Program-made: the position numbers and the translations under genes
In this document: positions 44,948 through 64,000 of the stretch, piece by piece
Position numbering within the stretch: the first letter of the stretch is position 1
How the letters are laid out: each line of letters opens with the position of its first letter
The notes under the pieces: generated by a model
Database searches by the model: none
Seen by the model: the letters and a program-made list of their open reading frames with translations, nothing else
What the model was told of the DNA's origin: nothing
Source: Myxococcus sp. RHSTA-1-4
GTDB lineage: Bacteria > Myxococcota > Myxococcia > Myxococcales > Myxococcaceae
Reading direction: 5' to 3'
NCBI RefSeq assembly: GCF_020037125.1
Contig: NZ_JAIQDG010000013.1
Span: 124,001-188,000, forward strand
Length of the DNA: 64,000 nt

Positions 44948-45022
<75 letters not shown>

Positions 45023-45085
45023 TCGCTGTACCGAAGAAGCCCGGTAGGAATGAAGACCGGGTCGCCGTGGTTGAAGACAACATGA

Positions 45086-45160
<75 letters not shown>

Positions 45161-46639: not shown

Positions 46640-49600
46640 GTGAGAAGGTTGGTTGCCACGCTGTCCGGCCTGGCGCTGGTGTTGTCTGGAACCGGTGCCG
46701 CTGCTCGGACCTTGCCGAACTACGATGCACTGCAGGATGCGAAGCCCTCGGGTCGCGCTTCCGCTGGCTTCAAGCCCGTGAACCCCGTCAAGGGCGCGCG
46801 CGTCGCCCACCGTGACGAGCGCACGGGCTCGCCCACGTTCATCTGGGCCCACAAGACACCGGCGCAGACGAGCCTCCGCGCGCAGTTCGCGGGCATGGCT
46901 CCCGAGCAGGCCGCGCTGGCGCAGGTCCAGGACCACGCGGCCCTCTTCGGGCTGAGCTCCTTCGAGGCCGCGGGCGCCAAGGTGGTCTCCGTCAGCCAGA
47001 ACCGCCAGGGCGTCAAGGTCGTGAAGATGGCGCAGGAGGCCGGCGGCATCGAGGTCTTCCGCCAGAACCTCAACCTCCTCCTCAACCGCGACAACGAGCT
47101 GGTGGCCATCTCCGGCTCGCTGTCCAACCAGGTCTCGAACACCGCGCCCGAGGCGCGCCTGCACTTCAAGCTCCCCGCCACCCGGGCCATCTCGGTGGCG
47201 TACAAGGACCTGACGGGCAACGACCTGGATCCGAGCCTGCTGGCGAGGACGAACATCAAGCAGGAGACGGGCGCGTACTCCCACTACACGCTCGCCACCT
47301 ACGCCCGCCCGCTGGCGCAGGGCCTGGTCATCCCGGCCCGCGTGAAGCAGGTGCTCTTCCCGCTGCCCACCGCGCTCGTGCCCGCGTACTACGTGGAGCT
47401 CAACACCGGCGCCCCGGACAGCAATGACTCGGACTACTACGCCTACGTCATCTCCGCGGCGGACGGCAGCCTGCTGCTGCGCAACAACCTGACGGCGCAC
47501 GCGGAGTTCAGCTACCGCGTGTTCGCGGACACCACGCCGCCGTACACCCCGCACGACGGCCCCACGGGCGCCGCCGCCGCCACGCCGCACCCCACGGGCA
47601 GCCCGAACGGCTTCCGCCCGGCCTACGTCCCGCCCGCCCTCGTCACCCTGGAGAGCGCTCCCTTCAGCCACGGAGACCCCTGGCTCCCGAACGGCGCCAC
47701 GGTGACCACCGGTAACAACGTGGACGCGTACGCGGACCTCGTGGCTCCGGACTACTACAGCGAGGGCGACCTGCGCCCCACGGCCACCGCGCCGGGCGTG
47801 TTCGACCGGACGATGCTCTTCGACATCGCCCCGAACGCCAACGCCGAGCAGATTGCCGCGGCCACCACGAGCCTGTTCTTCATGAACAACTGGCTCCATG
47901 ACTGGTACTACGACACGGGCTTCGACGAGGCCTCGGGCAACGCGCAGGCCGACAACTACGGCCGCGGCGGTCTGGGCAACGACCCCATCCACGCGCAGGC
48001 GCAGGACTACACCAACATCAACAACGCCAACATGTCCACGCCGGCGGACGGTGCGTCCCCGCGCATGCAGATGTACCTCTTCACCGGCCCGCGCAACGCG
48101 CGCGTGACGGTGACCGCGCCCGCCTCCATCGCGGGTGACTACCTGACGGGTATCGCCGCGGGCTTCGGTCCGCAGGCGTTCGACGCCACCGGCGACGTGG
48201 TGGCGGCCCTGGACGAGTCCAACGCCTCGGGCCCGTCGACCACCGACGCCTGCACCCCGCTCACCAACGCGGCGGAGGTCGCCGGGAAGTTCGCCCTGGT
48301 CGACCGTGGCACGTGCGGCTTCGCCGTCAAGGCCGCCGTCGTCCAGGCGGCGGGCGCCATCGGCTTCATCCTCGCCGACAACACGCCGCGCTTCATCGTC
48401 GACATGGGCGGCACGGCCTCGGGCATCACCATCCCCTCGCTGCTCGTCACCCAGGCGGACGGCGCCCGGCTGCGCGGCGCGCTCGCCGAGGGCGTCACCG
48501 CGCGCATGTTCCGCGGTCCCACCATTGGCGTCGACGGCACGGTGGACAACCAGATCGTCGCGCACGAGTGGGGCCACTACATCAGCAACCGCCTCATCTC
48601 GAACGGGTCCGGTCTGGTCAACAACCAGGGCCGCGCCATGGGCGAGGGCTGGGCGGACTTCCACGCGCTGCTGATGACGGTGCGCGCGGAGGACATCGAC
48701 GTCCCGTCCAATCCCGACTGGACCGGCGTCTACGCCATGGCCGAGTACGCGACGCGCGGCATCTCGCCGGACTCGTCGTTCTACGGCATCCGCCGTGGTG
48801 CCTACTCGGTGAACGAGGACAAGAACGCGCTGCGCTTCCGCCACATCATGAACGGCGTGGCGCTGCCGACGACCACCCCCTTCGCTCCGGGGGGCGTCAA
48901 CTCGCAGGTCCACAACTCCGGTGAGATCTGGGCCTCCACGCTGTGGGAGTGCTACGTGTCGCTCCTCCGGGCGCATCCGTTCCAGGAAGCGCAGGACCGG
49001 ATGAAGAGCTACATCGTCAACGGCTACAAGCTGACGCCCCCGTCGCCCACCTACCTGGAGGCGCGTGACGCCATCCTCGCGGCGGTGCTCGCCAACGACC
49101 CGGCTGACTTCCAGCGCTTCTGGGCGGCCTTCGCCTGGCGCGGCATGGGCGTGGGCGCGGTGGCCCCGGACCGCTACTCCACCGACCACTCGGGTGTGGT
49201 GGAGAGCTACGTGCTGGGCGTGGACGTGGAGCTCGTCTCCGTCGCCTACGAGGACTCCGTGGCGACCCCGGGTGACGCGGACGGCATCCTGGACAACGGC
49301 GAGACGGGCACCATCGCCATCACCGTGGCCAACAAGGGCTCCTCCGAGGCGGCCGCGACCAGCGCCACCGTGGTGTCCACCACCCCGGGTGTGAAGATGG
49401 GCAACCGCGGCTTCGTCAACTTCCCGGCCATCCCGGTCGGCGCGACGGAGACGGTGCATGTGCCGGTGACGCTGTCCGGCGCCAGCCTGGGCCAGCGCGC
49501 CGAGGTGGCCGTCGCCATCCGTGACGATGGACAGGTCGTCCAGAGCGACAAGTCGATGACGCTGAACATCAGGGTCAACTACGACGAGGTGCCGGCGGCC

Positions 49601-51685
49601 ACCGCCACGGAGACCGTGGAGGCGTCCGAGGCCAACCTGCCCTGGGTCAGCGACCACGACGCGAGGCTGGCCAGTGCGGACTTCTCGGTCGTCGAGTTCT
49701 CGGACTTCAACCGGGCCTACTACGGCCCGAACATGGGCGCCGCGAGCGACCTCCGTCTCACGTCCCCCGAGCTCCAGGTGAGCAGCACCGAGCCGTTCTC
49801 GCTCACCTTCCGTCACTCCTACGACTTCGAGGCCGACGCCGACGGCAACTACGACGGCGCCGTCATCGAGCTCTCCGAGGACAATGGCGCGACGTGGGTC
49901 GACGTCGGTGATGCGCTGTATACCGGCGAGCTCATCCAGTACGCCGGCAACCGCAACCCGCTGGCCGGCCGCCGCGCCATCGTGGGCACCACCCCGGACT
50001 TCCCGGAGTTCATCACCTCCACGCTGAACCTGGGCGACGCCTACGCGGGCAAGACGGTGCGGATCCGGTTCCGTATCGGCAGCGACAACGGTGCCGGCAA
50101 CACGGGCTGGGTGCTGGACGACCTTGCCTTCTCCGGCATCACCAACCGTCCGTTCACGAAGATCTGCGCGGACAGCGGCGTGTGCGGCAACACCGCGCCC
50201 GTCGCCAGCGCGGGCGCGGACATGGCCGTGGACGAGCGCGCGCAGGTGTCGCTGGCCGGTAGTGCCTACGACCTGGACGGCAACGCGCTCACCTACGCGT
50301 GGGAGCAGTTGGACGGCCCGGAGGTGACCCTCACGGGCGACACCACGCTCACGCCGTCCTTCACCGCTCCCGAGGTGACGGCCGACACCAGCGTGGTGCT
50401 CCTCCTGACGGTCAGCGACGGGACGGCCACCTCCGAAGACCTGGTCACCGTGCTCGTGCGCCATGTCAACCGCGCGCCCACCGCGAACGCGGGCCTGGAC
50501 GCCATCGCGGACGAGCGTGGCGCCGTCACGCTGAGCGGCTCCGCGAGCGACCCGGAGGACGACGCGCTCACCTACCTCTGGACGCAGGTGTCCGGCACGG
50601 CGGTGGCGCTGCGCAACTACGACACCGCCACCGCCACCTTCATCGCGCCGGAGACGGACGTCGGTGAGACGCTGACCTTCCGCCTGACGGTGAGCGACGG
50701 CCAGGCCAGCACCAGCGACACGGTGGACGTGCGCATCGACAACGTGAACCGCGCGCCGGTGGTGACGGCCTCGTCCGTCACCATCGACGAGCGCAGCACC
50801 GCCATCGTCGAGGCCACCGCCTCCGACCCCGACGGCGATGCGCTGACCTACACCTGGATCCAGACGGCCGGCGACGAGGTGGTGTTCGACGGTGCCGGCA
50901 CCGCTCGCATCACCTTCTCCACGGGCGAGGTGGCCGCTGACGCCGTGCTGCGCTTCCAGGTGACCGTGAGCGACGGGACGGCCTCGCTCCAGCGGGAGGT
51001 CGCGGTGAACGTGCGGCACATCAACCGCGCGCCCACCGTGAACGCGGGCCTGGACCTCGCCGCGGATGAGCGCTCGTCGGTGACGCTGAGCGGCTCCGCC
51101 AGCGACGCGGACCAGGGCGACACGCTGACCTATGCCTGGACGCAGGTGTCCGGTACCCCGGTGGCGCTGTCCGGTGCCAACGGCGCGATGGCCACCTTCA
51201 CCGCGCCGAACACGGCGTCCGGTGAGACGCTGACCTTCCGTCTGACGGTGAGCGACGGCCAGGCGACGACGAGCGACACGGTGGACGTGGTGGTCAACTC
51301 GAACAACACCGTCCCGGTGGCCAGGGCTCGCATCATCCTCAGCGGCAACCAGACGTCGATGATCCTCGACGGCTCGGAGTCCGGCGATCCGGATGGTGAC
51401 GCGATCACCTACAAGTGGGAGCAGACGGGTGGCCCGTCCGTGTCGCTGGCCAACGCCGACCAGGCGGTGATCAACGTGGACGTGCCCGAGCTCGACGACG
51501 ACAGCGCCACGTTCACCTTCCGTCTGACGGTGACGGACGCGCGTGGCGGCTCGCACACCGCCACCGTGGAGGCCATGACCACGCCGGACACCGGCGGCTG
51601 CTCCTCGACGGGCGCGGGCGCTCCGGCCGGCATGCTCGGCCTGGCGCTCCTCAGCCTGCTGCGCCGTCGTCGCAAGCGGGTCTGA
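46640..51685 (+). CDS. Secreted M36 (fungalysin-type) metalloprotease with PA domain, PKD-like repeats and MYXO-CTERM tail
   Basis: A 1681-residue exported protease. A signal peptide (RRLVATLSGLALVLSG) is followed by an FTP-type propeptide (about 50-270) and the catalytic domain. A PA-type insert near 500-615 separates LFFMNNWLHDWYYD from the zinc site HEWGH (His642, Glu643, His646) and Glu669 in GEGWADFH. After the domain come a jelly-roll-like segment and five PKD/Ig-like repeats of about 93 residues (from about 1183 to 1640, each starting near NRAPxxNAG and ending VSDG..). The end is GGCSSTGAG, a hydrophobic helix and an Arg-rich tail: the MYXO-CTERM sorting form. Start is a GTG with GGGAG about 10 bases upstream. 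Likely role is extracellular protein digestion during predation or surface processing. Confidence 0.93.
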   Translation: MRRLVATLSGLALVLSGTGAAARTLPNYDALQDAKPSGRASAGFKPVNPVKGARVAHRDERTGSPTFIWAHKTPAQTSLRAQFAGMAPEQAALAQVQDHAALFGLSSFEAAGAKVVSVSQNRQGVKVVKMAQEAGGIEVFRQNLNLLLNRDNELVAISGSLSNQVSNTAPEARLHFKLPATRAISVAYKDLTGNDLDPSLLARTNIKQETGAYSHYTLATYARPLAQGLVIPARVKQVLFPLPTALVPAYYVELNTGAPDSNDSDYYAYVISAADGSLLLRNNLTAHAEFSYRVFADTTPPYTPHDGPTGAAAATPHPTGSPNGFRPAYVPPALVTLESAPFSHGDPWLPNGATVTTGNNVDAYADLVAPDYYSEGDLRPTATAPGVFDRTMLFDIAPNANAEQIAAATTSLFFMNNWLHDWYYDTGFDEASGNAQADNYGRGGLGNDPIHAQAQDYTNINNANMSTPADGASPRMQMYLFTGPRNARVTVTAPASIAGDYLTGIAAGFGPQAFDATGDVVAALDESNASGPSTTDACTPLTNAAEVAGKFALVDRGTCGFAVKAAVVQAAGAIGFILADNTPRFIVDMGGTASGITIPSLLVTQADGARLRGALAEGVTARMFRGPTIGVDGTVDNQIVAHEWGHYISNRLISNGSGLVNNQGRAMGEGWADFHALLMTVRAEDIDVPSNPDWTGVYAMAEYATRGISPDSSFYGIRRGAYSVNEDKNALRFRHIMNGVALPTTTPFAPGGVNSQVHNSGEIWASTLWECYVSLLRAHPFQEAQDRMKSYIVNGYKLTPPSPTYLEARDAILAAVLANDPADFQRFWAAFAWRGMGVGAVAPDRYSTDHSGVVESYVLGVDVELVSVAYEDSVATPGDADGILDNGETGTIAITVANKGSSEAAATSATVVSTTPGVKMGNRGFVNFPAIPVGATETVHVPVTLSGASLGQRAEVAVAIRDDGQVVQSDKSMTLNIRVNYDEVPAATATETVEASEANLPWVSDHDARLASADFSVVEFSDFNRAYYGPNMGAASDLRLTSPELQVSSTEPFSLTFRHSYDFEADADGNYDGAVIELSEDNGATWVDVGDALYTGELIQYAGNRNPLAGRRAIVGTTPDFPEFITSTLNLGDAYAGKTVRIRFRIGSDNGAGNTGWVLDDLAFSGITNRPFTKICADSGVCGNTAPVASAGADMAVDERAQVSLAGSAYDLDGNALTYAWEQLDGPEVTLTGDTTLTPSFTAPEVTADTSVVLLLTVSDGTATSEDLVTVLVRHVNRAPTANAGLDAIADERGAVTLSGSASDPEDDALTYLWTQVSGTAVALRNYDTATATFIAPETDVGETLTFRLTVSDGQASTSDTVDVRIDNVNRAPVVTASSVTIDERSTAIVEATASDPDGDALTYTWIQTAGDEVVFDGAGTARITFSTGEVAADAVLRFQVTVSDGTASLQREVAVNVRHINRAPTVNAGLDLAADERSSVTLSGSASDADQGDTLTYAWTQVSGTPVALSGANGAMATFTAPNTASGETLTFRLTVSDGQATTSDTVDVVVNSNNTVPVARARIILSGNQTSMILDGSESGDPDGDAITYKWEQTGGPSVSLANADQAVINVDVPELDDDSATFTFRLTVTDARGGSHTATVEAMTTPDTGGCSSTGAGAPAGMLGLALLSLLRRRRKRV

Positions 51686-51790: not shown

Positions 51791-51842
51791 GCGGCTTCCC
51801 AACGCGGAGCGGGGAGGGGATGCTTCGCGCCCGGAGGTGTCG

Positions 51843-52676
51843 ATGGCGGTCCTCGAGCTGTCGCGTGCCGTTCCACTGCTCCAGAAGGAGTACCGGGAAG
51901 GCCGGCTCATCCCCTTCCTGGGGGCGGGCTTCTCCAAGCCGCTGAACCTGCCGGACTGGGGCGAGCTCATCGCGGACATGGCGCGCAAGCTCGGCTTCGA
52001 GCCGGACCTGTTCACCCTGCACGGCGACTTCGAGCAGCTCGCGGGCTACTTCGAGGACGCCGGTGACTTCGAGTACCTCGTCCACGAGATGACGCGGGGC
52101 TTCAACTCGAGGGAGTCCGAGACGCTCCGCAAGGCGTCACCGACGCACCGGGCGCTCGCCGCGCTCCGTTGGCACACGCTCTACACGACCAACTTCGACT
52201 TCCACGTGGAGGGAGCGTTCAAGGACGCGGGGAGGCCCGTCTCCGTGCTGGCGTCCTTCGAGGACTTCCAGGGGCCCAGGTCCCCCGGAGGCTGCGAGGT
52301 CATCAAGTTCCACGGCACGCTGGAGAAGCGGGGCACCATCGTCCTCACGGAGAAGGCGTTCTTCGACCGGATGGCGCTGGAGGCCCCGGCGGACCAGCGG
52401 CTGCGCGCGGACCTGCTCAGCCACAGCTTCCTGTTCATCGGCTACAGCTTCAGCGACACGAACATCCGGCACATCTGGCACCGGATGCACCAGCTCCGGC
52501 AGGCGAGCCATGGAGCGGTGGCCTCGCCGCGGCCCCGCAGGTGCTTCTTCGCCACGCATGGCGCGGGGCCGGTGCAGCCCGCGCTGCTGGAGAAGTGGAA
52601 CATCGACATCATCCAGCTCGACCCGTCCGACAAGTCGGCGAGCGTGGCGGACCTCCTCCAGCGGATCGGCGCCTGA
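51843..52676 (+). CDS. SIR2-domain protein, likely NAD-hydrolysing
   Basis: A 277-residue single-domain SIR2-like protein of the kind found in bacterial anti-phage modules. Motifs in order: the NAD loop IPFLGAGFSKPLNLPDW with Gly27-Ala28-Gly29, TTNFD with Asn117 and Asp119, the catalytic-type His157 in IKFHGTLEKRG, and GYSFSDTNI at 200-208. No effector or sensor domain is fused, and no signal or membrane segment is present. Ribosome site GGAGG is 5 bases before the ATG. It lies 158 bases past the M36 gene and 14 bases before the ITPase-like gene, so these two form a unit. NAD cleavage, not deacetylation, is inferred from comparison with SIR2 defence proteins; activity is untested. Confidence 0.8.
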   Translation: MAVLELSRAVPLLQKEYREGRLIPFLGAGFSKPLNLPDWGELIADMARKLGFEPDLFTLHGDFEQLAGYFEDAGDFEYLVHEMTRGFNSRESETLRKASPTHRALAALRWHTLYTTNFDFHVEGAFKDAGRPVSVLASFEDFQGPRSPGGCEVIKFHGTLEKRGTIVLTEKAFFDRMALEAPADQRLRADLLSHSFLFIGYSFSDTNIRHIWHRMHQLRQASHGAVASPRPRRCFFATHGAGPVQPALLEKWNIDIIQLDPSDKSASVADLLQRIGA

Positions 52677-52690
52677 CCGGAGGCCATGAG

Positions 52691-53263
52691 ATGAAGACCG
52701 CGTACTACTATACCTCCAACGACTACAAGGCCGCGGAGGCCCGGCACGTCTTCGAGCCCGCGGGGAAGGTCGGGGTGCTGAAGGTCCGGAACGGCATCAC
52801 CGAGATTCTCGACGTGGACCTGGACAGGGTCATCCGCGCCAAGGCGGCAGCCGCGTATGCGGCGGTCCGCTATCCCGTCGTCGTCGAGCACGGCGCGTTC
52901 TGCATCGACTTCCTCCAGGGGCTCCCGGGCGCGCTCGTTCGGCCCTTCTGGGAGAAGCTCGGGGCCCGGTTGTGCGGGCTGGTTCCACCGGGGCAGCCGA
53001 GGACGGTGCGCGCCCTGAGCGCCGTCTGCTACTGCGACGGGAAGCGCCGAGAGGTCATCATCCGCGAGGTGAGGGGAGAGCTGGCGACGGACGTCCGGGG
53101 GAGCGGCGGCTATCACTGGGACCCGGTGTTCATCCCCGAAAGCGACAAGGCGCGGCGGACCTTCGCGGAGATGCCGCCGGAGGAGAAGCTGCGGCTGTCT
53201 CCGGCGGGGCTCGCCTATGCGGCGATGCGTGACTGGATGGAGAAGAACCTGGGTGGGGCCTGA
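52691..53263 (+). CDS. Divergent Ham1/ITPase-like NTP pyrophosphatase
   Basis: A 190-residue protein of the HAM1/RdgB/ITPA family, which hydrolyses non-canonical purine NTPs to NMP and PPi. The N-terminus YTSNDYKAAE has Thr8-Ser9-Asn10, Lys13 and Glu16 of the family site; LPG at 78-80, GSGGYHWDPVFIP at 137-149, Glu160 and Lys166 also fit. It departs from the family in two places: the metal-binding ED of VEDxGL is E66-H67 here, and the SHR loop that grips the base is SPA at 170-172. Such changes could alter substrate or abolish catalysis. It follows the SIR2 gene by 14 bases with GGAGG before its ATG, so it is translated from the same transcript. Confidence 0.75.
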   Translation: MKTAYYYTSNDYKAAEARHVFEPAGKVGVLKVRNGITEILDVDLDRVIRAKAAAAYAAVRYPVVVEHGAFCIDFLQGLPGALVRPFWEKLGARLCGLVPPGQPRTVRALSAVCYCDGKRREVIIREVRGELATDVRGSGGYHWDPVFIPESDKARRTFAEMPPEEKLRLSPAGLAYAAMRDWMEKNLGGA

Positions 53264-54367: not shown

Positions 54368-54443
54368 CGCGGCCGGCAAGCTAATCCACCCGGGGGTGGT
54401 TCTGTCACGGCGGCGTGCTTTCGAAGGCGGCGCCCCGGTCCGC

Positions 54444-56267
54444 TCAGAACGAGCCGGCCAGGCTCGCCTGGCCCACGAGTCCTCCGGGGCGCGTGAGTCC
54501 CTCGTCCGGGTTGTTGGCGTCGACGCGCGCCAGGACCGAGAGGCGCAGGGACAGCGAGCGCACCGGGGCGTAGTCGGTGCTCACGTACATCCCCAAGTCA
54601 CGCGTGGGCGCCATCCCCGTGGCCCCGCTCACCGGCTCCTCCTCGAACCAGCTCACGCGCCCGAGCAGGCGCAGCGCCGCGACGGGCCGCACCAGCGCCT
54701 GGACGTGGGCGCTCCGCCCGCGCATCCAGCCCAGCTCCTCCTGGTAGCCCAACGAGACGCCACCCGCGTCTCCAAAGAGGCGAGGGAGCCCCACCTCCGG
54801 CCCCACGAGCTGGCGCGAGAGCGCCGTCTCGATGTCCCTCACCAGCAGCCCGGTGAGTCCGGCGGAGAGCCACGGCGCCGGCTGCCAGAGGGCCGTCGCG
54901 TCGCCGTGCACCGTCCGGCTCGACAGCGTCAGCTCGCCCAGCGGCGGAGGCACGTCGAGCGCCATCGTCCCCGTGTACCGCGCCCCTCCCGAGAGCCTCC
55001 ATGCCTGCGACGGTCGCACCTCCACGTCCAGCCGCGCCGCGTCCACGCCCCCGGGGGCCATGGCATCCCCCAGCCCCAGCCTCACCCACGCGCCCACGTC
55101 CGCGGAGCGCCCCAGCCAGGCGCGCACCCGGCCCTCTGCCTCGAAGCGCTCGCCGTACTCGGGCGCGGACATGAACGACACCCGCGCCTCGTGGTGCAGC
55201 ATGCGCAGCGCGCTCCCCTCGGCCGCGACGTGCTGGCCCGCCACGTAGGCACCCGCCGTCATCCGCCGGAAGCTCGGAGTCAGCGTCGCCGCGTCCGGCA
55301 CGCCGCCTCCGAAGGCCCCCACCTCGAAGTCGCCGTCCGTGCTGCGCCAGCCAAGCTGGGCGCCGTCGAACATCGCCACGCCCGGCACGTACCAGGGCCA
55401 CACGCGCCCCACCGCCAGCGCGAGATGCTCACCGGCCTCTCGCCGCGTCACCTCGCCCTCACGCACGTAGAGCCGGGCCACCGTGCGCGAGGGCGAGCGG
55501 AAGTCCTCGGGACGCGACGCCCACGCCCGCGCGCTGGCATCGAGCCACACCCGGAAGCCCGCGCCCAGCGGGAAGCCCCGGAGCGCCACGTCCAGCCGCT
55601 CCTGATGGAAGTCGCCCCCGGTGTTCGACGCCCAGCTCGTATGGTCGAGCGCCACCTGCACCGCGGGGCGCCGCGAGCTCCCGGTCCGTCCCGACGCGTA
55701 CTCGACGAGGGGCTGGGTGCTCGATTCGAGCAGCGCACGCCGGCGGGTGAGCTCGGTCGTGGAGGCGGGCAGGGGCCTGGCGGCGACGGTGGCGGACGCC
55801 TCGCGCTTGGGGAGGTCGAAGCGGTCGCCCTCGCGCAGGCCTTTTCCCTGGCACGCGGCGTGGTGGTCCGCCACCCACTCGATGCGGCACTTTCCGGCGG
55901 GCCTTCCACGGCGGGAGAGCACCAGCTCCGCGTCCTTCTCCAGCCCCTCGTCCCGTCCCCGGTCCAGGTACACGCGCTCGCTGCTCACGTACGTGACGCT
56001 CCCCCACGTCGGCGCGGCGTCGCGCGACGCACGAGCACGCGGCGAGGGCTGCTCGGTGACGGCCGCCGATGCAGCCTCCACGTCCGCTGGCTGCGCGCGG
56101 ACGGGAGTTACGACGGGACGCACCTGCTTCCTCGGAGGCTTCTTCTTGTTCTTGCTCGCACGAGACGCGGCGCGAGCGCGCCCGGAAGCGGCCGGGTTCC
56201 TGACTGGCGCGGCGGAGACCACCGAGCCGGCGAGCAGGCAGAGCAGGAGGAGTCCAGGGGCGCGCAT
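54444..56267 (-). CDS. Outer-membrane barrel-like protein of the multihaem cytochrome operon
   Basis: A 607-residue exported protein with signal peptide MRAPGLLLLCLLAGSVVSAA, then a Lys/Arg-rich linker and an SH3-like region (SVTYVSSERVYLDRGRDEGLEKDAELVLSRRGRPAGKCRI). From about residue 190 it is a chain of short amphipathic strands (RVWLDASARAW, LALAVGRVWPWYVPGVAMFD, VSFMSAPEYG, RLLGRVSWFEEE) ending LVGQASLAGSF, a barrel-assembly type terminus with Phe. It is the last gene of a five-gene operon and its ATG overlaps the preceding cytochrome stop. The barrel could form the pore that exposes cytochromes at the surface, as MtrB and porin-cytochrome proteins do, but no sequence similarity to those was recognised. 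Confidence 0.6.
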   Translation of the reverse strand: MRAPGLLLLCLLAGSVVSAAPVRNPAASGRARAASRASKNKKKPPRKQVRPVVTPVRAQPADVEAASAAVTEQPSPRARASRDAAPTWGSVTYVSSERVYLDRGRDEGLEKDAELVLSRRGRPAGKCRIEWVADHHAACQGKGLREGDRFDLPKREASATVAARPLPASTTELTRRRALLESSTQPLVEYASGRTGSSRRPAVQVALDHTSWASNTGGDFHQERLDVALRGFPLGAGFRVWLDASARAWASRPEDFRSPSRTVARLYVREGEVTRREAGEHLALAVGRVWPWYVPGVAMFDGAQLGWRSTDGDFEVGAFGGGVPDAATLTPSFRRMTAGAYVAGQHVAAEGSALRMLHHEARVSFMSAPEYGERFEAEGRVRAWLGRSADVGAWVRLGLGDAMAPGGVDAARLDVEVRPSQAWRLSGGARYTGTMALDVPPPLGELTLSSRTVHGDATALWQPAPWLSAGLTGLLVRDIETALSRQLVGPEVGLPRLFGDAGGVSLGYQEELGWMRGRSAHVQALVRPVAALRLLGRVSWFEEEPVSGATGMAPTRDLGMYVSTDYAPVRSLSLRLSVLARVDANNPDEGLTRPGGLVGQASLAGSF

Positions 56268-57271
56268 CAGGGCTTCCGGCCGTTGGCGTGGCAGCCGCTC
56301 GTCACACAGGTGGTGGACTGGTAGCGGTAGGTGGAGAAGTTCTGGTGCTTGTCGTCCATCGCGCTCCTGCCGTGGCACGAGAGGCAATCGAACGGGTTGA
56401 AGTCCTGCGCGAAGGGCTTGTCCGTGCGGGCGACTGGATGGCAGACGAGGCACGAATCCCTGTAGTGCTTGGTGCCGCTGAGGATGGAGAAGGGCAGGTG
56501 GCTGGAGACGGTCTTCACCTGCGAGTCGCCATGGCAGCGCAGGCACGTGGCGGAGACCCGCTGATAGCCGCCGACCTGGCCGTGCTCCGGGTCCGTCGTC
56601 GCGGCGGTGTGGCAGGTGAGGCAGTCCACGACCTTCCGGTTGGTGCGGTCCGTGTGGCACGTGCTGCACGAGATGCCCGCATGGGCGGCGCCGGCCTCGA
56701 TGGGGAAGTACGGCCGGTGGTCGACCGAGGTGACCTCCCCCATCGGGTGGCACGCGAGGCACTGGGGGCTCGACCACTGATAGCCGGAGACGCCGGTGTG
56801 GATGGGGTCCGTCGTGGGGGCGGTGTGGCAGCCGGTACACTCCACGACCTTCCGGTTGGAGGGGTCGATGTGGCAGGTGGCGCACGCGATTCCCGCGTGG
56901 GTGGTGCCCTGGCCGATGGGGAAGAGGTTGGAGTGGTCCACCCCCGCGGCCGTGCCGTCGGGATGGCAGGCGAAGCACTTCGCGCTGTCCCAGGCGTAGT
57001 CGGCCACGCCCGAGTGGCGCGGATCCGTTACCGCCTGGTCATGCTGGTGGCAGCTCAGGCAGGTGAACAGCTTGAACGTGTCGAAGTCACCGTGACAGGC
57101 GTTGCAGTCGGCGTTCGCGTGCGCGCCGGTGGCGATGGGGAAGGGCGTATGTGTCGCGTGGGTGAGCGCGGTGACGGAGGGCGCCGGAGGCCCCTCGGAG
57201 CCCTGGCTGCATGCGCAGGCCAGCGCCAGCAGCAGGGGGAGGAGACGTCGCGGGAGGGAAGGAGCAGGCAT
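56267..57271 (-). CDS. Multihaem c-type cytochrome lipoprotein, 12 haem motifs
   Basis: A 334-residue exported cytochrome. The signal MPAPSLPRRLLPLLLALACACSQG has a lipobox, so the mature protein should be acylated at Cys19 or Cys21. It contains eleven CxxCH motifs (CNACH, CLSCH, CFACH, CATCH, CTGCH, CLACH, CSTCH, CLTCH, CLRCH, CLVCH, CLSCH) and one CVTSGCH variant near the end, plus many extra His for bis-His ligation. A sub-repeat of about 65 residues (HAGIxCxTCHxDxxNRKVV, CTGCHTAPTTDP) occurs two to three times. The stop overlaps the barrel start. Cytochrome c maturation is required, so it acts outside the inner membrane. I infer a link between periplasmic cytochromes and the outer membrane. 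Confidence 0.88.
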   Translation of the reverse strand: MPAPSLPRRLLPLLLALACACSQGSEGPPAPSVTALTHATHTPFPIATGAHANADCNACHGDFDTFKLFTCLSCHQHDQAVTDPRHSGVADYAWDSAKCFACHPDGTAAGVDHSNLFPIGQGTTHAGIACATCHIDPSNRKVVECTGCHTAPTTDPIHTGVSGYQWSSPQCLACHPMGEVTSVDHRPYFPIEAGAAHAGISCSTCHTDRTNRKVVDCLTCHTAATTDPEHGQVGGYQRVSATCLRCHGDSQVKTVSSHLPFSILSGTKHYRDSCLVCHPVARTDKPFAQDFNPFDCLSCHGRSAMDDKHQNFSTYRYQSTTCVTSGCHANGRKP

Positions 57272-57294
57272 GACGACCTCCGGACCGCGTGGCT

Positions 57295-58182
57295 TCACTG
57301 CTGCACCGAGAAGCGGTGGCACTCGTAACACTTCACGTCCTTGCACTGATAGCCGGGCACGTTCTCGTGGCGCGCGTCCGTCCGCGAGCAGGAATGCTCG
57401 TGACAGCCGCTGCACGCGGCGGTGCGGGTGGCACAGGCTCCGGTGGCGGAGAGTCCCGCGAGCGACGTGTGGCAGCGCTGGCAGGGGATGTTGGCGTGCT
57501 CGCCCCGGCTGAGCTGGAAGCACGCGTCGTGGCCGGGGAAGCGCGCCCCCTGGAAGCGCCAGGGTGTATGGCACTGCCGGCAGTCCGTGCCGAACCCGAG
57601 CGCCACGTGGTCGACGGACACCAGCCGGGTCCTCTCGAAGTCCTGCTGGTGGCAGCCGATGCACTCCACCGTCTTGCGACTGAAGATGGGGCCTCGCTGG
57701 TCCACATGGCACTCCGTGCAGGGGAGCACCGCGTGCCGTCCCACCAGGGGGAAGTTCGTCCTCCGGTGTGCGTCCGCGTTGAACCCGGGCGCCGCCCAGC
57801 GTGTGGACTCGTGGCAGCCCTCGCAGCGCTGGCCGAACTCGCCGGCATGGGCATCACGGTGGCAGCCCGAGCACTGGCGCGGCAGTGGGGCCTCGAAGCC
57901 CTGCGTGTGGCATGCCTGACACGCCACGCCGCCATGCGCGCCCAGCAGCGGGAAGCCCGTGCGCTCGTGCGGGAAGTGCGCGTCGTGCCAGCCCGAGGGC
58001 GTGTGACACAGCTCGCACTTCGTCTTCGGATGGCCGGCCTCCGCCCGGGGCGCGAGGCGCGCGGGGAGGATGGGCAGGTCCAAGGCCTTCTCCGGAGTCC
58101 GGGGCTCCGAAGCAGGCGGTGCCGCGCCCAGCAGCGCGAGCACGGAGAGGCAGCGGAGCACGGTGGCGAGGCGCGCGGTCAT
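57295..58182 (-). CDS. Multihaem c-type cytochrome, 10 haem motifs
   Basis: A 295-residue periplasmic cytochrome with signal peptide MTARLATVLRCLSVLALLGAA. Ten CxxCH motifs are present (CELCH, CQACH, CSGCH, CEGCH, CTECH, CIGCH, CRQCH, CQRCH, CSGCH, CYECH). The spacing resembles the cytochrome c3/NapC-like repeated units, and phrases like FPLLGAHGGVACQACH recur as FPLVGRHAVLPCTECH, so the gene arose by internal duplication. The N-terminal start overlaps the stop of the upstream 20-haem gene by ATGA. Its likely job is to pass electrons between the 20-haem cytochrome and the 12-haem lipoprotein. Confidence 0.88.
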   Translation of the reverse strand: MTARLATVLRCLSVLALLGAAPPASEPRTPEKALDLPILPARLAPRAEAGHPKTKCELCHTPSGWHDAHFPHERTGFPLLGAHGGVACQACHTQGFEAPLPRQCSGCHRDAHAGEFGQRCEGCHESTRWAAPGFNADAHRRTNFPLVGRHAVLPCTECHVDQRGPIFSRKTVECIGCHQQDFERTRLVSVDHVALGFGTDCRQCHTPWRFQGARFPGHDACFQLSRGEHANIPCQRCHTSLAGLSATGACATRTAACSGCHEHSCSRTDARHENVPGYQCKDVKCYECHRFSVQQ

Positions 58183-60007
58183 GGCTGGAACCCCTGGAAG
58201 GCCCCGTGGTGCGCGTCGGCATGGCAGCCCGCGCAGTCCCGGGGCAGGCCCTCGTAGCGGCGCACCTCGAGCCCCGAGCCCACCTGCACCGGGCGGTGGC
58301 ACCGCTCGCACGGCACGTCCGCGTGCTTCCCCTGGAGGACGAAGTCGGTGAAGGGCGGCGAGTGGGCAAAGCCCGCGGGCTTGAAGCTGGCGGTGTCATG
58401 GCAGCGGGTGCAGTCGGTCGGCTGGCCCGGCGCGGGCGCGAACTGCCCCGCGTGCACGTCCTCGTGGCAGGAGGCACATGCGGTCTCCATCGGCCGGAAG
58501 CGCACCAGCTCGCGGCCCTTCTCCACGACGGTCCGATGGCAGGACTCACATGTGACCGAGGCGTGCTTGCCGGTGAGCGGGAAGCGGCTGTCCCGGTCGT
58601 GCTGGAAGCGCAGCGCGTGGAAGGAGTCCACCTGGTGGCACGTGGCGCACTCCGCCTTCGAGGTGAACTGGCCCGCGTGGGGGTCCGCATGGCAGCTCTC
58701 GCACCGGCTGGCGCCAGGCGAGGGGAAGTCGAACAGCATCAGGCTGAAGCGCGGCGAGGGGCCCTTGCGTGAAGGCGCCTGACGCTCCGCGGCCGCCTTG
58801 TGCGCCAGCTTCGGCTCCTCGCGATGGCAGTCGTCACAGGCCACCGCGAGGTGGCTCCCCATCAGCGGGTACTGCGTCTTCGCGTGCTGCTCGACGCCGA
58901 AGCGCGCGGGAGAGAAGCCCTCCACGGAGTGGCACTGCTCGCACGGAGGTGTCCGGCCATCCGCGCCGGCGAGCTGCCCCAGGTGCGCATCCACGTGGCA
59001 CGACTCGCAGGTGGAGAAGGCGAGCCCCTTGAAGCGCCGCGGCCTTCCGGGGAATGGGCCGTGGCAGCTCTTGCAGTCCACGTCCACATGGAGCCCGCGA
59101 AGGGGGAAGCGCGTCTTGTCGTGGAAGGCGCGGTCCTGCTGGGCGTTGCGGATCTGATGCCAGTCCTCCACGGTGTGGCAGCTCTCACACCGCTCGCCGA
59201 AGCGGCTCTGGTGCGGGTCCTGGTGGCAGTCCAGGCAGCTTGCATGGGGCAGCTTCTCGAACCGGACGAACGTGGCCGAGCGAGGCGCGGGGAAGGTGCC
59301 CGGGGGCGGCGTGTCCGTCTGCGTCGCCGAGTGGCACTGGGTACAGGTCACCTTCTTCCGGTGCGCGCCCTCCAGGGCGAAGCCCGTCTTCGCGTGGTCG
59401 AACCCGGAGGCGGGCTTCCACGCCTTCGGGGAGTGGCACTGCTCGCACTTCGCTCCGAGCTGCCCGCGGTGCTCGTCGAAGTGGCAGTCCGTACACGCGG
59501 TGCCGAGCCCGAGGAATGTCTCGCGCTCGGGATGCTTCTTCAGCAGGGCCCGCAGCGTGTCGTCCACGATGAGCCGGGGCTGGTGGCACTGCTCGCACTT
59601 CGTCTGCGAGTGCCTTCCTTCCAGCGGGAAGCCCGTGCGGGAGCCGTGGTCGAAACCGCCCTGCTTCCGGGGCCCCCAGTCCACCAGGGCATGCTCGCGG
59701 CCCTGGTGCTCGCGATGGCAGGACTCGCAGGCGCGCTCGGAGGCGGGAATCCTGCCGTGGAAGCCCTCTCCCGCGCGGATGCCGCTGGCCAGCTCCGTGT
59801 GGCAGGACAGGCAGCGCTCCTGCGAGAGCTTCTGCCCGGCCTCGTGGCACTTCGTACAGTTGGACAGGCCCTCCAGCGCGGCATGGGGGCGGGCCAGCTC
59901 GCCCGGCGAGAAGAAGTCCCCGGCCCGGGCCCCGGAGGCGCCCAGCAGCAGGAAGACGGCGAGCGCCCACGCGAGGGGCGGACGCCCGAAGTGACGCGGG
60001 ACGCCCA

Positions 60008-60008
<1 letters not shown>
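58179..60008 (-). CDS. Large multihaem c-type cytochrome, 20 haem motifs
   Basis: A 609-residue exported cytochrome with signal peptide MGVPRHFGRPPLAWALAVFLLLGASGARA. I count twenty CxxCH motifs, starting CTKCH, CLSCH, CESCH, CEQCH and ending CERCH, CAGCH. The motif-bearing unit GFxLEGxHxKxxCxxCH recurs (FPLEGRHSQTKCEQCH, FALEGAHRKKVTCTQCH, FPLTGKHASVTCESCH, FVLQGKHADVPCERCH), which shows growth by internal duplication. Each unit adds one or two His for bis-His haems. It overlaps the oxidoreductase stop by ATGA. A linear chain of this many haems is suited to carrying electrons over several nanometres, not to a single redox reaction. Confidence 0.9.
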
Positions 60009-62233
<2,225 letters not shown>

Positions 62234-62280
62234 GACTCCCTGTCTGGAGGCGGCAGGTGTGCCGCACTGTCCGGAACAGA

Positions 62281-62310
62281 ACTCTAGAAACGCCCAGAAC
62301 TGTCGCGCAA
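62281..62310 (-). promoter_or_regulatory. Candidate promoter of the cytochrome operon
   Basis: On the minus strand TTGCGC (62305-62310) and TAGAGT (62281-62286), 18 bases apart, lie about 50 bases before the oxidoreductase ATG. The -10 box is good; the -35 box is moderate. Confidence 0.45.
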
Positions 62311-62360
62311 TACCACCATCCCTGATTCTTCTTGATTCATGAGAGGATTCTCAGAGGGGC

Positions 62361-62384
62361 TCCCGCGGGCGTGCTCCCGCGGGA
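62361..62384. terminator. Hairpin after the right-edge protease gene
   Basis: Two perfect palindromes CCCGCGGG (62362-62369 and 62376-62383) can pair with each other in a 9-pair stem around a 6-base loop. No T-run on the minus strand, but it lies 27 bases past the stop. Confidence 0.4.
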
Positions 62385-62411
62385 CACCCGTCCCCGGCGC
62401 CGTGCCTCAGC

Positions 62412-64000
62412 TCACTGGTAGTACGGCGAGAGGGCCGCCTGGACGCGGGCGAGCAGGTCCTCCGCCTGCGCCCGCTCGACGCCGCTCAGCGAGCCCAGTC
62501 CCGCGGAGAGCGTGTCCCGCGCGTCGCGCAGGGCGAGGTACGCGGGGAGGCTCTGCATGGACTTCAGGATGTCCACCATGGTCCGGCGGGACTTGAAGCT
62601 CCGGATGCCGTCCACGTTGAGGAGGATGCCCTGGATGTCCGCGAGCACCGCGGGCGTGGCCGCGTTGTCCTCGCCCGGGGTGGCGGTGAAGGCGTCGCGC
62701 TGGCTCGCCGGGTCCAGGTAGAGCCGGGACAGGATGCGGCGCGCGAGGTCATCCGCCACCTCGCCGTACAGCGGGCCGGCGTCGGGCGGCATGGCCAGCG
62801 GAGGCCGCACCTGGCCGATGGCCACGTCGTACGCGAACGTCTGGTCGGCCGGCACGCCCGCGCGCACCCACTGGAGCGTGGCGTTCGCGTAGTAGTCGAA
62901 CGCTCCCTCCAGCACGGGGAAGGGGAGCACCTCGTACAGCAGCAGCTCCATGACGAGCTGGTGCGTGGGGCCATAGAAGAAGCCCAGCGGGTCCGAGTAC
63001 CGGTCAAACCGGTTGCAGTACGGCTCCGTCCGCGTGTCCGGGTCCGTGCAGAACGGCCCGGTGGGCAGCGTCTCGGACAGCCCGTACAGGTAGCGCACCG
63101 CCTGCACGTCGTACGAGGCCGGCTTGTCCAGGTAGATGGCGTCCGGGTCGTACACGTACTCCATCACCGAGCTGGAGCGCGGGGAGGCCGGGTTGCCGTC
63201 GAACACCAGCGAGCCCGCGAAGTTGTGGCGCAGGCCGAGCGTGTGGCCGACCTCGTGGGCGATGACGTGCGTGAGGTACTGCTCCACCTTCTGCTTCTTG
63301 GTGAGCAGCGCGTCCCGCGCGGGCCCGGGCAGCTTCTGGTGGCGGGCCTCGGCGCCCTCGCGCAGCGGGGGCAGGGCCAGCTCGCACAGGGGCTCGCCCT
63401 CCAGGCCGCTCCACGCCATGCGCAGCGGCTTGCGGGCGTCCTTCAGCTTCGCCTTCAGGGCCGCCGCCGCGTCGTCGCCGAACTCGCCGTCCGCGTACTC
63501 CAGCCACAGCGCGTTGACGTAGACGCTGGCGCCGCGAATCTCCCCCGTGTTGGGGTTGGTGCGCCAGTCCGCGAAGGCGAAGCCCGCGGACGCGTCCGGG
63601 TCGAAGATGATGACGTTCTTGTCGTCATCCGCGAAGCCGACGGTGTCACCCACGGCGGCCTCGAAGACCTTGAAGCCGAAGGCCTCGTTCCAGTTCTCCA
63701 CGCCCTTCCTCACCGCGCCCACCACGTCGTAGTCCTTGAAGCGCGGGTCGGCCTGCACGGCATTCACCGTGTCGGTGATGTGCCACTTGATGGGCTTCAT
63801 GCCCGGGTGGATGTTCCACTTCGCGGCCGTCTGCACCACCTGCCCGGTGTTGGGCACCAGGAGCGGCTCGCTGCGGAAGTAGTGCTCCCGCGGAGGCAGC
63901 GGCGTGGGCGTGTAGCCCGCGCCCTCCTGGTAGCGGCGCAGGGCCACGCCCAGCGTGCCGGACTGGCGCAGCAGGTTGTCCTCCAGGTAGTCCGGCGCGG
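62412..64000 (-). CDS. Zinc-dependent metalloprotease, C-terminal part (partial)
   Basis: Open reading continues past the right edge, so only about 529 C-terminal residues are seen. The metzincin-type site HEVGHTLGLRHNF (HExxHxxGxxH) follows a domain with many Asp/Tyr strands. Downstream is a long conserved-looking region with SSSVMEYVYDPDAIYL (a Met-turn-like element) and PFPVLEGAFDYYANATLQWVRAG. The pattern resembles large zinc metalloproteases of about 800-900 residues that have the HEVGHTLGLRHNF signature. The N-terminal signal peptide lies outside the window. It runs in the same direction as the cytochrome operon but ends 178 bases before its start. Confidence 0.8.
   Translation of the reverse strand, partial: APDYLEDNLLRQSGTLGVALRRYQEGAGYTPTPLPPREHYFRSEPLLVPNTGQVVQTAAKWNIHPGMKPIKWHITDTVNAVQADPRFKDYDVVGAVRKGVENWNEAFGFKVFEAAVGDTVGFADDDKNVIIFDPDASAGFAFADWRTNPNTGEIRGASVYVNALWLEYADGEFGDDAAAALKAKLKDARKPLRMAWSGLEGEPLCELALPPLREGAEARHQKLPGPARDALLTKKQKVEQYLTHVIAHEVGHTLGLRHNFAGSLVFDGNPASPRSSSVMEYVYDPDAIYLDKPASYDVQAVRYLYGLSETLPTGPFCTDPDTRTEPYCNRFDRYSDPLGFFYGPTHQLVMELLLYEVLPFPVLEGAFDYYANATLQWVRAGVPADQTFAYDVAIGQVRPPLAMPPDAGPLYGEVADDLARRILSRLYLDPASQRDAFTATPGEDNAATPAVLADIQGILLNVDGIRSFKSRRTMVDILKSMQSLPAYLALRDARDTLSAGLGSLSGVERAQAEDLLARVQAALSPYYQ

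Follow-up and report, generated by a model that had tools for sequence, protein, structure and literature searches.

We analyzed a 64,000-nucleotide stretch of the genome of Myxococcus sp. RHSTA-1-4 (contig NZ_JAIQDG010000013.1, positions 124,001 to 188,000; hereafter the window), in which five minus-strand genes, g1 to g5, spanning 62233-54444, code for a membrane oxidoreductase, three multihaem cytochromes and a barrel-like protein. A preliminary description of this DNA had read them as a five-gene operon for an electron conduit with 42 haem motifs. The genes and the haem counts were borne out by gene calls: CxxCH occurs 20 times in g2, 10 times in g3 and 11 times in g4, which has one CVTSGCH in addition, giving 41 CxxCH and one CxxxxCH. 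When g2, g3 and g4 were shuffled 2000 times each, the mean was 0.14-0.20 motifs and the maximum was 3, far below the observed numbers, and a chance origin of the repeats was ruled out. In the other stop-to-stop frames longer than 80 amino acids in the window, no CxxCH was found.

Three of the four junctions had been described as ATGA overlaps and the fourth as a 23-base gap. The gap was confirmed at g3/g4, but ATGA, a 4-base overlap, was found only at g2/g3, while g1/g2 and g4/g5 each share a single base in TGATG. Because of these overlaps, a single transcript for g1-g5 is likely. The claim of one promoter gained no support: a scan of 62100-62700 gave no sigma-70-type pattern, though some kinds of promoter escape such a scan, and the gene upstream of g1, a metalloprotease gene, lies on the same strand. 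The G+C content of the operon resembles that of the surrounding DNA.

Predicted proteins and haem ligands

PCC3, a little-studied putative porin-cytochrome complex of iron oxidizers, consists of a porin, an extracellular cytochrome (median 34 haems), a periplasmic cytochrome (median 21) and an inner-membrane protein (IMP) of 300 amino acids with five transmembrane helices, of which the third and fifth carry WX3HX13H and the fourth SGXXG (PMC5566968). In g1, the two H-x13-H pairs pointed out earlier are H548/H562 and H714/H728, with W four residues ahead of each. Both WX3HX13H motifs and TGxxG were present in all 17 aligned g1 relatives. Pfam matches of g1 were Pyr_redox_3 (1.9e-40) and Fer4_10 (1.4e-11). 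With a flavin and a b-haem domain in a single polypeptide, g1 resembles the ferric reductase/NOX layout, to which the PCC3 IMP has been likened (PMC5566968). The fusion of the two domains in g1 suggests NAD(P)H as the donor. For wider comparison, the best 80 of 576 g1 relatives in named genomes were taken as loci. Among the 79 proteins (of 80) with two readable Fe-S motifs, His replaced the second Cys of the second motif in all 79, and the same position of the first motif was Cys in 52, Ser in 24 and another residue in 3. The missing usual second Cys in the g1 motifs may tune their potential. A His-ligated Fe-S cluster in g1-type proteins would be unusual.

To describe the haem ligands, g2 was aligned in 19 rows (the window and 18 of 22 loci, without L088, L099, L102 and L104) and g3 in 18 rows (the window and 17 of 22 loci, without the same four and L103). 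All 20 haem motifs of g2 were invariant, together with exactly 20 non-motif His; in g3, 10 motifs and 9 non-motif His were invariant, and a tenth such His was present in 12 of 18 rows. Both were realigned with all sufficiently long proteins of L062-L104. The g2 set of 42 rows (L102 dropped) contains repeats, since several loci share contigs with 20 regions that we had fetched from g1 or barrel matches, mostly on longer contigs; its 20 motifs and 20 non-motif His were again invariant in 42/42. In the 39 rows of g3 (L088, L099, L102 and L103 dropped), the first motif, at the trimmed edge, was aligned in 37 and the other nine in all 39. Among Met, Lys, Tyr and non-motif Cys, the sole invariant residue in the g2 and g3 alignments was one Lys in g2. 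Invariant motifs with such numbers of invariant non-motif His are in keeping with bis-His wires and argue against a catalytic haem.

Above the Pfam cut-offs, g2, g3 and g4 matched mainly cytochrome c3/c7-type families, and g2 also MtrC/MtrF domain II/IV (51.3 bits, cut-off 30). Single-sequence searches of the PDB gave no match for g2 (E 0.01) or g3 (E 0.1), and for g4 a weak cytochrome c3 match (0.083) alone. In profile searches, high-molecular-weight cytochrome c and a further multihaem cytochrome were weak matches of g2, and g3 weakly matched a 16-haem cytochrome, 6r2q_A and others. We take 6r2q_A to be MtrA, which appears under another name in the match table.

A match to a nitrite, tetrathionate or sulfite reductase had been named beforehand as a finding that would defeat the conduit model. 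None of g2, g3 and g4 reached the cut-off of any NCBIfam model, reductases included. Multihaem reductases do exist, and NrfH matched g2 weakly (18 bits; cut-off 134.2). A dedicated reductase for one of these or a similar small substrate would nevertheless have to be reconciled with 20 invariant non-motif His for the 20 haems of g2 and 9 for the 10 of g3, as well as with the single invariant Lys, and we consider it highly implausible. A known reductase set was rejected on the NCBIfam result and the His number of g2.

The barrel was modelled with AlphaFold2 from 17 sequences, namely the window and 16 of 17 loci (L093, which is cut, was left out; L086, also cut, was retained). In the model, a small beta domain at the N-terminus is followed by 22 long strands, with a mean predicted local distance difference test score (pLDDT) of 81.7 and a predicted template modelling score of 0.63. 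Its fold matches were outer-membrane barrels, the best being VIA (Z 18.5, root-mean-square deviation 4.0, 283 aligned); MtrB was not among the matches listed, which has no bearing either way. The lack of a barrel had been named as the other finding that would defeat the conduit model; the prediction instead agrees with the barrel-like protein proposed before. Its terminal Phe was also verified, and the last residue was aromatic in 17 of 20 g5 homologues compared. No family could be assigned: there was no NCBIfam match of g5 at 0.01 and no Pfam match at 0.1 for any of the 17 aligned members, and a profile search gave nothing credible.

Table 1. Positions of the operon genes, the g1 domains and the replaced stretch in the window
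Feature	Position	Strand	Description
g1	60008..62233	-	741 amino acids; fused inner-membrane oxidoreductase with a hydrophobic N-terminus, a pair of Fe-S motifs, an FAD/NAD(P) domain of the YpdA/thioredoxin reductase type and, at the C-terminus, a b-haem membrane domain resembling the PCC3 IMP
Two Fe-S motifs of g1	61910..62077	-	CIGSLSCLKACP and CIGHGRCAAECP; where a second Cys is usual, the first motif has Ser and the second His
FAD/NAD(P)-binding domain of g1	60935..61720	-	GSGPAG at 179-184; GGGDAALEA at 329-337 (second nucleotide-binding motif)
b-haem membrane domain of g1, PCC3 IMP equivalent	60011..60736	-	W544-x3-H548-x13-H562; TGIVG at 585; W710-x3-H714-x13-H728
g2	58179..60008	-	609 amino acids; 20-haem cytochrome, signal-peptide-like start; probably periplasmic
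g3	57295..58182	-	295 amino acids; 10-haem cytochrome, signal-peptide-like start; additional to PCC3
g4	56267..57271	-	334 amino acids; 12-motif cytochrome, lipoprotein-like start (ALAC/ACAC lipobox-like, read from sequence); probable surface end, exchangeable
g5	54444..56267	-	607 amino acids; predicted small N-terminal beta domain and 22-strand outer-membrane beta-barrel, terminal Phe
Stretch replaced in genus-mates	54384..62380	.	nine genus-mates hold 1.8-2.4 kb of other DNA there

Occurrence in Myxococcota and the site in the host genome

Among 195 Myxococcota genomes searched, g1 relatives were found in 57 (E 1e-20) and barrel relatives in 45 (1e-5), all of them among the 57. In 38 of the 45 genomes, a single contig held both genes no more than about 15 kb apart; in the other 7 they were on different draft contigs. 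Ten of the 12 genomes with g1 only matched its N-terminal half only. All 20 fetched regions contained g1, 20-haem g2, 10-haem g3 and g5 together, with separate g2 and g3 frames in 18 and one 30-haem frame in two. The latter were in-frame fusions with short linkers in two lineages, L064 (G036) and L078 (G183; L104 is the same contig).

The fourth gene differed among these regions. A g4-like cytochrome with 8-11 CxxCH stood between g3 and g5 in nine; a cytochrome with 22-29 motifs, somewhat similar to g4 in four cases, was present within the fetched stretch in seven; and neither was found within the fetched stretch in four. Because of this variation, the comparison indicates that the conserved core is g1-g2-g3-g5 and that the last cytochrome is exchangeable. 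Many last cytochromes, but not all, had a lipobox-like start by a simple heuristic pattern, and g4 is the probable surface end of the conduit. The operon is also present in Anaeromyxobacter oryzae (L097), where the g4-like gene has 8 motifs. Giant cytochromes with 29 motifs (44 in L085) were observed near L085, L074, L079, L080, L081 and others, and some of them start with a g4-like N-terminal part.

These regions also bear on whether the system could be a periplasmic electron store or redox buffer under oxygen limitation, with the barrel as an accessory and no transfer to the outside. The four regions without a last cytochrome in the fetched stretch would agree with this, and very large haem numbers have been suggested to act as capacitors (PMC2330069, PMC10734462). 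However, the barrel was kept with g2 and g3 in 20/20 regions and never occurred without g1 in 45 genomes, and a g4-like or 22-29-haem cytochrome was nearby in 16/20. We regard a store as quite improbable.

Within the host's GTDB genus, g1 was found in one of 27 genomes, and g2 was absent from the other 26 at 1e-40. The flanking patatin gene was present in 26 of the 27. For the flanking protease, relatives were found in 19, a count that takes in paralogues. The flank genes are 8.0 kb apart in the window and 1.8-2.4 kb apart in G116, G117, G118, G120, G128, G130, G131, G132 and G138. Six of these nine sites were examined, and each held a long frame with a similar start; the one tested was an amidase (PF01425, 1.2e-96). 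DNA similarity to the closest carriers, G139 and G100 (other genera of the same family), covered 54442-62273 and no flank in the stretches compared. With g1 in a single genome of the genus and other DNA at the site in nine genus-mates, the simplest reading is that the operon was gained by horizontal replacement from a related high-GC bacterium, and the replaced DNA was most likely an amidase gene.

Three other features of the window were noted on the plus strand. A SIR2-like protein gene at 51834-53260 (PF13289; PADLOC ThsA-like, 1e-29) overlaps a gene for a Ham1-like nucleotide pyrophosphatase, and the two are a possible NAD/nucleotide-based defence pair. An M36 fungalysin-like protease of 1681 amino acids (46640-51685) has PKD/Ig repeats and a C-terminal Gly-Cys/hydrophobic/Arg-rich tail, which we presume to resemble MYXO-CTERM. 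Two tandem tRNA-Met (CAT) genes are located at 44948-45160.

Proposed electron path and its direction

The ligand pattern, the predicted barrel and the membrane flavin/b-haem protein together point to a path from the cytoplasm to the cell surface. Cytoplasmic NAD(P)H would reduce the FAD and Fe-S centres of g1, from which electrons would reach the two b-haems in the same polypeptide and then pass along the 20-haem wire g2 to the 10-haem g3. At or inside the barrel g5, g3 would hand them over to the 12-haem lipoprotein g4 at the cell surface, and g4 to an extracellular acceptor. We consider it fairly probable that the operon encodes a Myxococcota form of a PCC3-type conduit that carries electrons across the cell envelope. 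The conduit reading put forward earlier gained support from the predicted barrel, the lack of a reductase model at cut-off, one invariant extra His per haem in g2 and the PCC3-type architecture.

Several results weigh on the other side. Twenty-six of the 27 genomes of the genus are without g1, and members of the genus are generally aerobic predators. In region L078, the barrel gene is on the opposite strand, 3.4 kb off. The structure model of g3 failed (pLDDT 48), and its insertion in the barrel is only a guess because its similarity to 6r2q_A is weak. When g5 was compared with porin candidates, defined as the long cysteine-poor frame beside the second cytochrome and found in nine of 18 PCC3-like loci inspected, the hhalign probability was 11.7%. 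Finally, the direction of transfer is not readable from the sequence, and PCC3 was proposed for uptake.

We infer outward, NAD(P)H-driven transfer. The same conduit could run inward, with Fe(II) or another donor outside the cell supplying electrons that end up on NAD(P)+ or quinones. Uptake of this sort was proposed and modelled for PCC3, which was found in Fe(II) oxidizers (PMC5566968). PCC3 is described as lacking functional verification, and in Sideroxydans CL21 the inner-membrane gene of one of the PCC3 copies goes up with iron oxidation (PMC12442390). On the other hand, carriers of the operon include A. oryzae, whose genus includes Fe(III) reducers (PMC4245776), and export would be suited no less well by a flavin/NAD(P) domain that is part of the fusion; neither point is decisive, and we judge the inward direction rather unlikely.

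For the conduit in its outward form, we tentatively propose that g1 could be a single-polypeptide NOX-like NAD(P)H dehydrogenase, which would move electrons directly over the inner membrane, bypass the quinone pool and feed a periplasm-spanning 30-haem wire of g2 and g3 leading out via the barrel to an exchangeable surface cytochrome, and that a Myxococcus-like predator might have acquired this old Myxococcota system horizontally. If this is true, the separate Fe-S/FAD gene near proteobacterial PCC3-like clusters would be the missing cytoplasmic partner of PCC3. The Myxococcota form joins candidate partners in one protein. Together with the g2-g3 fusions, this joining predicts the order of electron hand-over, so that the path becomes testable. 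The operon also suggests electron exchange with the surroundings in some predatory-type myxobacteria, and with it the model metal reducer Anaeromyxobacter, for which one cluster per genome was reported (PMC4245776), would have a second conduit.

Comparison with known conduits

MtrCAB, MtoAB and PioAB would work alike, with a barrel, a periplasmic cytochrome and a surface lipoprotein cytochrome, but g5 had no match to MtrB/PioB (TIGR03509). Over six genomes this model gave no match, and it was also silent in 14 control genomes and hence uninformative. With the DmsE/MtrA decahaem model (TIGR03508), g2 scored 46.8 bits against a cut-off of 192.2 and g3 had no match at 0.01; with OmcA/MtrC (TIGR03507), g4 scored 21.7 bits against 209.3. 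An Mtr-type identity was rejected, since the family models for barrel and cytochromes were not reached at their cut-offs.

One two-gene pcc cluster (Group IV) has been reported in each of three Anaeromyxobacter genomes (PMC4245776). Like the operon, it has a porin-like protein and a 12-haem cytochrome. Genome G032, presumably A. dehalogenans 2CP-C, has an operon homologue at 3.01-3.02 Mb and, 0.88 Mb apart, a two-gene cluster at 3.90 Mb (L082). The latter encodes a 444-amino-acid barrel and a 344-amino-acid 12-haem lipoprotein-like protein, fitting the published description, and is probably the published Anaeromyxobacter Pcc (Adeh_3392 cluster). In contrast to this likeness, g5 had no significant similarity to that barrel (best E 1.9, hhalign 0.2%), and the 12-haem protein matched g4 at E 0.007, and g2 and g3 at 2e-7 and 1e-4, as haem-motif repeats tend to. 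The separate locus and the barrel and g4 comparisons ruled out that the operon is the Group IV Pcc. PCC4 was also rejected; its described cytochromes have 4, 5 and 10 haems, and none of them is extracellular (PMC5566968).

The words Anaeromyxobacter and Myxococc are absent from the main text of PMC5566968. In the accessible parts of the open-access literature on PCC3 with Myxococcota or Anaeromyxobacter, the gene set was not found described, and where PCC3 and Anaeromyxobacter co-occur they are treated separately. The portions consulted of PMC4245776, PMC10553843, PMC5539420, PMC10954620, PMC2330069, PMC5566968, PMC11475568, PMC10734462, PMC12442390, PMC11495043 and PMC12016527 contain no description of it.

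Among the best 80 of 576 g1 relatives, 57, mostly from Proteobacteria, match the N-terminal half only. At the 58 loci L105-L162, an IMP-like frame was found in 45, a g2-like cytochrome in 45, both in 41 and neither in 9, with several contigs ending nearby; this association starts from the Fe-S/FAD gene and gives no count of PCC3 clusters without it. Of the 46 separate IMP-like frames of L103-L162, 45 have two WX3HX13H motifs and 42 have [ST]GxxG as well. The g2-like proteins have 21 haems in 25 of 45, some of the 45 being cut by contig ends. Between g2 and the mostly 21-haem proteins beside IMP-like genes, identity was 27-36% and scores were 107-269 bits (those above 100 bits, KSB1 aside). By their layout, set against PCC3 as described (PMC5566968), loci with separate Fe-S/FAD, IMP-like and g2-like genes appear to be PCC3 clusters. 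The hhalign probabilities of g5 with two Nitrospirae barrels were 83% and 51%.

The operon shares with PCC3 a predicted barrel, a putatively periplasmic cytochrome of about 21 haems, a further cytochrome and an inner-membrane protein with two WX3HX13H and [S/T]GxxG. It differs in that g1 fuses the IMP, a separate 300-amino-acid protein in PCC3, with an Fe-S/FAD module and has T in place of S in TGxxG; that g2 has 20 haems and is joined by the additional 10-haem g3; that the model of g5 has 22 strands, whereas PCC3 barrels are reported with as many as 42 transmembrane regions; and that the last cytochrome has 12 motifs, against the PCC3 median of 34.

Two KSB1 clusters, L103 and L159, have a 20-haem g2 homologue adjoined by a g3-like cytochrome (L103, cut by the contig end) or a g4-like 15-haem cytochrome (L159), and the L159 barrel is a g5 homologue by hhalign (probability 97%, E 9e-11). 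Unlike in the operon, their Fe-S/FAD protein and IMP are separate genes, and L159 is without a separate 10-haem gene. In a tree of the g1 N-terminal half, the fused-form rows were one group (100/100) and KSB1 grouped with Nitrospirae and L143; in a quick FastTree of g2, the fused-form rows were again one group, joined to KSB1 (99). The rows labelled 'myxo' are L083-L102, L104 and the window, mostly Myxococcota, but by title L101 is from Proteobacteria and L085 and L095 are from Deltaproteobacteria; among the 'other' rows, L140 and L143 come from Deltaproteobacteria, which stand under Myxococcota in the tree tool. The branching order is not settled, because KSB1 is placed differently in the g1 tree and the root is a midpoint root. 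No link found between the operon and PCC3-like clusters is more direct than the KSB1 clusters, and the comparison supports the operon as a putative conduit of the PCC3 kind in a distinct Myxococcota form, with PCC3 as its closest kin.

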